From assembly GCA_021324755.1 (NCBI GenBank), contig JAJPIL010000004.1, forward strand, positions 62,001 through 126,000: 64,000 nucleotides of DNA. The letters run 5' to 3'. The notes under the pieces are model-generated. The model made no database searches. It saw only the letters and a list, made by a program, of their open reading frames with translations, and was not told where the DNA came from. Position 1 is the stretch's first letter. Each line of letters begins with the position of its first letter. Source of the DNA: Pseudomonadota bacterium (GTDB lineage Bacteria > Desulfobacterota > Binatia > Binatales > Binataceae). The translations under genes were made by a program, and so were the position numbers. Positions 48,252 through 48,343 of the stretch are shown here, one piece after another.

Positions 48252-48298
48252 AAAAGAAAAAAGCCCAGGCGCGAGCTACCGCCGGCTCGCACTTGGGC
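48252..48298 (-). terminator. Intrinsic terminator in the leader of the MetX-like gene
   Basis: Minus strand GCCCAAGTGCGAGC-CGGCGGTA-GCTCGCGCCTGGGC (one A-C mismatch, one G-U) followed by TTTTTTCTTTT. Confidence 0.92.
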
Positions 48299-48343
48299 CT
48301 CGTTGCCCAAAGCTTCGTGTTCGGGATGGCTCCGTTGCCATCC
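48252..48343 (-). ncRNA. ANTAR-type antitermination leader of the MetX-like hydrolase gene
   Basis: Minus strand P1 GGATGGC-AACGGA-GCCATCC (48324-48343), 13-nt linker, P2 TTGGGC-AACGAG-GCCCAA (48293-48310); both loops AxxGxx; P2 3' arm shared with terminator. Confidence 0.88.

Follow-up and report, generated by a model that had tools for sequence, protein, structure and literature searches.

The leader at positions 48343-48252 (minus strand) of the window, the whole 64,000-nucleotide stretch of DNA analysed here, is very likely an ANTAR attenuator that responds to AmiR and precedes the coding region of a PRK07581-type alpha/beta hydrolase gene, a reading to which we would assign a probability of roughly 0.86. 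The features concerned are as follows.

48384-48356, minus: putative sigma-70 promoter, TTGACA 48384-48379, 17-nt spacer, TAGTTT 48361-48356 (sequence, script)
48343-48324, minus: P1 hairpin, GGATGGC-AACGGA-GCCATCC, 7 bp, hexaloop AACGGA (sequence, folding, scans, covariance models)
between 48324 and 48310, minus: P1-P2 linker, 13 nt (sequence)
48310-48293, minus: P2 hairpin, TTGGGC-AACGAG-GCCCAA, 6 bp, hexaloop AACGAG (sequence, folding)
48298-48252, minus: intrinsic terminator, 5' arm beginning within the P2 3' arm (sequence, folding)
47107-48120, minus: PRK07581-type alpha/beta hydrolase gene ("MetX-like"), probable ATG at 48120 after GGGGG
45318-46616, minus: amiC, amide-sensing negative regulator (Peripla_BP_5; best solved matches Pseudomonas AmiC 1pea/1qo0, E 2.7e-97)
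44684-45295, minus: amiR, ANTAR antiterminator (Pfam ANTAR and AmiR_N; best solved match AmiR of 1qo0)
44588-44666, minus: first ANTAR leader, upstream of amiE (scans, covariance models)
43422-44453, minus: amiE, aliphatic amidase (NCBIfam PRK13286, 703.9 bits against a cut-off of 427)
37988-43047, minus: five genes of a Urt-type ABC transporter, with short amides or urea as probable substrates

The terminator hairpin, GCCCAAGTGCGAGC-CGGCGGTA-GCTCGCGCCTGGGC, spans 48298-48263 of the minus strand and is followed by the tail TTTTTTCTTTT at 48262-48252. An earlier note on this DNA had described two AxxGxx-type hexaloop hairpins, a 13-nt linker and a P2 that overlaps a terminator, all of which agree with the sequence and coordinates, and its proposal that both conformers be folded was borne out: in the nascent RNA through the end of P2 the minimum free energy structure is P1+P2 (-24.1 kcal/mol), and at full length it is P1 with the terminator, P2 being displaced (-44.6 kcal/mol). 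The terminator taken alone reaches -25.2 kcal/mol, and a conformer that retains P2 with the inner terminator helix alone reaches -36.1 kcal/mol, energies of alternative conformers having been computed on explicitly specified structures. The P1+P2 and P1+terminator states are mutually exclusive, and the terminator is favoured unless P2 is held. Given that P1+P2 is itself fairly stable (-36.1 vs -44.6 kcal/mol), basal readthrough may be high. Upstream, we infer a possible sigma-70 promoter with a weak -10, P1 beginning 12 nt past it; an exact TTGACA stands 50-52 nt upstream of P1 in three NCS1-hydrolase/amiE leaders (Roseibium, Paraburkholderia) and 51 nt upstream in the Acidiphilium leader.

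The leader of amiE provides the closest comparison. Its P1 (GCGGC-AAAGGC-GCCGC, 44666-44651) and P2 (GGGC-AACGAG-GCCC, 44639-44626), on the same minus strand, precede a terminator that begins at 44632 and carries a T tail. A 16-nt P2 core, TTGGGCAACGAGGCCC, is letter-identical in the two leaders, with no third exact copy elsewhere in the 3.07-Mb genome, and the sequences of P1, linker and terminator differ between them with the fold kept. The window AmiR, 3 kb downstream of the hydrolase leader, retains the conserved ANTAR core, and the earlier note's observation that it is the only ANTAR protein seen in the window extends to the genome as a whole, in which a search detected no other (3.07 Mb, 95% complete). 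With AmiR the sole ANTAR protein found and the P2 core common to both leaders, one AmiR should read both.

In published accounts, an ANTAR target consists of a pair of hairpins, both with a stem of 3 bp or more and a six-nucleotide loop whose first and fourth letters are A and G, and its P2 overlaps a correctly oriented intrinsic terminator with a gene downstream (PMC3369931, PMC8934654, PMC8164766). Linkers of 2-25 nt occur in such targets (PMC8164766); those of eut leaders measure 5-12 nt, and a 20-nt extension abolishes function (PMC3369931, PMC8934654, PMC8164766). The hydrolase leader has stems of 7 bp and 6 bp, A1 and G4 in both hexaloops, a linker of 13 nt (slightly above the eut range and inside the 2-25 nt range), a P2-overlapping terminator at 48298-48252 with the hydrolase gene next downstream, one ANTAR protein found in the genome, and a covariance score above background (27.0 bits) from a model containing no window sequences. 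In all of these sequence features the leader agrees with known ANTAR targets, which supports reading it as one, with AmiR binding and readthrough as the predicted consequence.

That the leader is more than a pair of chance hairpins is confirmed by several searches. A strict dual-hexaloop scan, run over the 64-kb window on both strands, returns two sites, the hydrolase leader and the amiE leader. When a P2-overlapping terminator is required, 1.3 Mb of loci yield 17 matches, many of which repeat the same leader where loci overlap, and the reversed controls yield 1; a looser scan of 1.9 Mb yields 16 against 2 in controls. A hit in L076 was dropped, as it overlaps a gene start and lacks a proper terminator. 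In an alignment of seven leaders, all nine stem pairs are kept in every sequence and six covary, with none of 500 shuffles as good, a count that is supportive rather than independent, the leaders having been chosen partly for pairing; a plain realignment (A2), which covered nine leaders, put P1 in the wrong place and was discarded. Because Rfam 15 gives no ANTAR-type family match near the hydrolase leader, home-made covariance models were used. The test model, R2, drew on eight leaders, all from other genomes and none from the window, and took the place of an earlier model, R1, that had included the window leaders. Within the window it scores the amiE leader at 42.2 bits, the hydrolase leader at 27.0 (E = 1.8e-4) and the next site at 12.9; across the 3.07-Mb genome the amiE leader ranks first (E 3.6e-6), the hydrolase leader second with a modest leave-out E-value of 0.0086, and a third site follows at 21.2 bits (E 0.17), all E-values being rough owing to short calibration. 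The covariance search that the earlier note had called for thus came out in its favour, at 27.0 bits and genome rank 2.

Might the element simply be the terminator of the tRNA-Val gene (48905-48831) that lies on the same strand about 490 nt upstream of the leader, its hairpins being fortuitous or belonging to an ordinary terminator? The strength of the leader terminator would suit this role, but a plain terminator leaves the A1/G4 hexaloops, the shared P2 core and the leave-out model score unexplained, and another terminator-like site (48736-48719) lies closer to the tRNA gene. We regard this explanation as highly unlikely.

The protein encoded by the downstream gene is, by profile score, MetX-like by fold only and belongs to PRK07581. 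The earlier note had termed it a MetX-type hydrolase; the likeness of fold stands, whereas membership of the true MetX homoserine O-acetyltransferases does not, as TIGR01392 gives 156.7 bits, far below its cut-off of 500, and PRK07581 (NF005757) gives 581.5 bits, which clears the curated cut-off of 332 for the subfamily. The open reading frame list starts the gene at GTG 48126 rather than at ATG 48120. Among solved structures its nearest relatives are PDB 5e4y/5efz and 5d6o/5d7b, with full-length matches of 262 and 248 bits, and 5e4y shares with it the nucleophile motif GxSMG as well as an Asp and a His at aligned positions; these enzymes resemble the window hydrolase in these respects and differ in having no known amide role. 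The entries are deposited as "Homoserine O-acetyltransferase"; we take them to be probable acetyl esterases, namely MekB from P. veronii and a related enzyme from C. glutamicum, a link for which open papers yielded no statement. A paralogue (49%) is encoded elsewhere in the genome, with no leader among the covariance-model matches. The window hydrolase itself may plausibly act on short-chain acyl compounds in the course of amide use.

Gene order links the hydrolase to amide genes. On the minus strand of the window, tRNA-Val is followed by the leader, the hydrolase gene, amiC, amiR, the amiE leader, amiE and the five Urt-type transporter genes, which also follow amiE in the same order in two relatives of the family (L171, L172). 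On the plus strand at 32568-35836, about 2 kb from where the ami cluster ends, lies another ABC transporter cluster of the branched-chain/urea type, with weak resemblance to the Urt genes. In three relatives of the family that possess full amiCR, the order amiR-leader-amiE recurs with no adjoining hydrolase, and the closest relative of the hydrolase (81% identity, L035, FK3.bin99, same family) lies away from its ami cluster and has no leader upstream, so that the leader arrangement is lineage-dependent. More distantly, the hydrolase recurs in amide clusters of varied design, its partners including AmiE, AmiC-AmiR, Urt-type transporters and NCS1 permeases: NCS1-hydrolase-AmiC-AmiR-UrtABCDE-AmiE in Roseibium; AmiE-CbbQ-VWA-AmiC-AmiR divergent from NCS1-hydrolase-amidase-formamidase in Paraburkholderia pBN4; Urt-AmiE-NCS1-hydrolase-CbbQ in Roseateles; AmiC-AmiR-hydrolase-Urt in Aminobacter; Urt-hydrolase-amidase-AmiC-AmiR in Variovorax; AmiC-AmiR-AmiE-CbbQ-CbbO-AmiS-hydrolase in Acidiphilium; NCS1-hydrolase-Urt-AmiE-CbbQ-CbbO-AmiC-AmiR in WY1.bin91; with further linkage in Methylobacterium, Guyparkeria and others. 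Numerous relatives of the hydrolase, even at 70-80% identity, are unlinked to amide clusters. In a tree of 113 hydrolases, the 16 amide-linked members cluster: 7 changes account for them, where shuffled labels give 15.2 and none of 500 shuffles comes as low. The recurrence in amide clusters of many Pseudomonadota suggests that the hydrolase probably belongs to amide nutrition and has been overlooked there. Many of these clusters also hold a CbbQ-type ATPase and a VWA-domain partner alongside AmiE and the hydrolase (for example L043:6008-8647, L174:8322-10899, L175:4969-7803 and L192:8068-11083); the window cluster showed neither.

Leaders of ANTAR type, variant in some cases, also stand upstream of four further NCS1-hydrolase operons. 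The looser scan gives loops AATGAG/AATGCA for an Acetobacteraceae MAG (L043), AACAGC/AACAGA for the NCS1-hydrolase leader of Paraburkholderia pBN4 (L194) and AACATT/AAAAAA for WY1.bin91 (L042); in Roseibium (L193) a P1 of GTGGC-AACGGG-GCCAC and a P2 loop GAAAAG within the terminator were recognised by eye. The earlier note had asked whether orthologues elsewhere carry the same leader, and the answer is divided: these four operons have comparable leaders, some with variant loops, and the closest relative of the hydrolase has none. The Acetobacteraceae leader is the cleanest parallel, with canonical loops and AmiC-AmiR on a separate contig. Every one of the 14 distinct looser-scan leaders precedes hydrolase-operon, amiE, urtA or, in Guyparkeria, nitrate-assimilation genes. 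In Aminobacter (L198), where AmiC-AmiR lies directly upstream of the hydrolase, the gap holds a terminator and no clear canonical P1/P2.

The Paraburkholderia, Roseibium and WY1.bin91 leaders have A at position 4 in one or both hexaloops. Given that a G-to-A change at this position reduces induction in E. faecalis (PMC3369931), such leaders may be weaker targets or may be read by differing AmiR proteins, and they count less surely as ANTAR targets than the window leader does. AmiR-linked leaders of this kind lie at L194:5451-5491 (+) and 5274-5233 (-), L193:9958-9998 (+), L042:3469-3510 (+) and L174:6647-6693 (+); their loop pairs include AACAGC/AACAGA, AACATT/AAAAAA and AACAGG/AATGTT, G4 being important for EutV, and a C-C mismatch below the closing pair is common to several of their P1 stems. 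The amiE/NCS1-hydrolase intergenic region of Paraburkholderia pBN4 (L194:5150-5610) contains a divergent pair of ANTAR-type leaders; both have a terminator of their own, and in both an exact TTGACA stands some 50 nt upstream of P1. In WY1.bin91 a second strong terminator starting GGC-AAAAAG-GCC (L175 ~16700-16650, minus), about 400 bases upstream of the NCS1-hydrolase leader, is possibly a tandem or separate attenuator.

These comparisons bear on two further explanations. A relic copy of the amiE leader, left by duplication or conversion and exerting no regulatory effect on the hydrolase, would account for the identity of the 16-nt P2 core, as expected of a recent copy, and for the nearest relative of the hydrolase having no leader; it is very improbable, however, as P1, linker and terminator diverge in sequence between the leaders with the fold kept and comparable leaders occur in distant bacteria upstream of four other NCS1-hydrolase operons. 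Least probable of all is a genuine attenuator with a different trigger, a leader peptide or riboswitch: a reading frame crosses the leader from ATG 48352 (by eye), but it begins no later than the inferred transcription start, shows no Shine-Dalgarno and no run of regulatory codons, no Rfam family matches the stretch even at E up to 1, and this trigger would explain neither the loop letters specific to ANTAR targets nor the P2 core in common with the amiE leader.

For an AmiR-responsive ANTAR attenuator, the known AmiC-AmiR/ANTAR scheme, in which ligand on AmiC frees AmiR and the AmiR dimer grips both hexaloops so that the terminator is excluded (PMC3369931, PMC8934654), suggests how the hydrolase gene might be controlled. 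Transcription would begin just upstream of P1. Without inducer, AmiC would retain AmiR, the RNA would refold from P1+P2 to P1 with the terminator, and most polymerases would halt near 48252. A short amide bound to AmiC would release AmiR, and the freed dimer would bind both hexaloops through A1 and G4 and hold P2, thereby blocking the terminator and allowing the hydrolase to be made. AmiR would likewise open the amiE leader, so that the hydrolase would be produced together with AmiE and the Urt-type amide transporter. Further, as no intrinsic terminator is listed for 47106-46617 (minus), the gap that separates the hydrolase gene from amiC, readthrough past the hydrolase might just possibly raise AmiC and AmiR as well.

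The RNA switch is of a type already known, as are multi-leader ANTAR regulons (PMC3369931); what appears to be new is the hydrolase target. The ami operon of Pseudomonas aeruginosa likewise has AmiC, AmiR and AmiE homologues, and its amiE leader likewise has dual A1/G4 hexaloop hairpins before an overlapping terminator (PMC3369931); the window differs in that a second leader serves a separate unit, that of the PRK07581 hydrolase, and in the Urt-type ABC transporter that follows amiE. In Enterococcus faecalis, EutV/EutW similarly combines one ANTAR protein with multiple leaders, including that of ef0120 outside eut, in which P2 and the terminator are exclusive (PMC3369931), although EutV is phosphorylated whereas AmiR is released by AmiC, and the genes controlled differ. 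Nitrate-assimilation leaders of the nasF type, exemplified by Guyparkeria (L181), share the dual hairpin and terminator, with two leaders near one ANTAR gene in Guyparkeria, but involve a nitrate regulator and nitrate genes where the window has AmiR and amides. The two Guyparkeria leaders (L181:8527-8477 and 742-693, both minus) precede nitrate-transport-type and nitrite/nitrate-reductase-type genes, the second having been recovered by a model built without it.

Open papers yielded no description of an AmiR regulon containing this hydrolase, and within the papers searched the association appears undescribed. More broadly, there is about an even chance that one clade of PRK07581 hydrolases, frequently accompanied by an NCS1 permease, forms a standing, undescribed part of AmiC-AmiR regulons in Pseudomonadota and in this deltaproteobacterial lineage, supplying an acyl-hydrolysis step in the use of amides or related nitrogen compounds, with A4 as a variant of ANTAR recognition in Paraburkholderia, Roseibium and WY1.bin91. 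On the reading favoured here, the AmiR regulon of this organism would grow from one leader to two. PRK07581 hydrolases would gain a functional lead, with amides, formamide-related compounds and acyl esters as candidate substrates. Finally, with 14 leaders and their cognate AmiR proteins at hand, some of the leaders with A4 loops, the choice of RNA by ANTAR proteins becomes testable.
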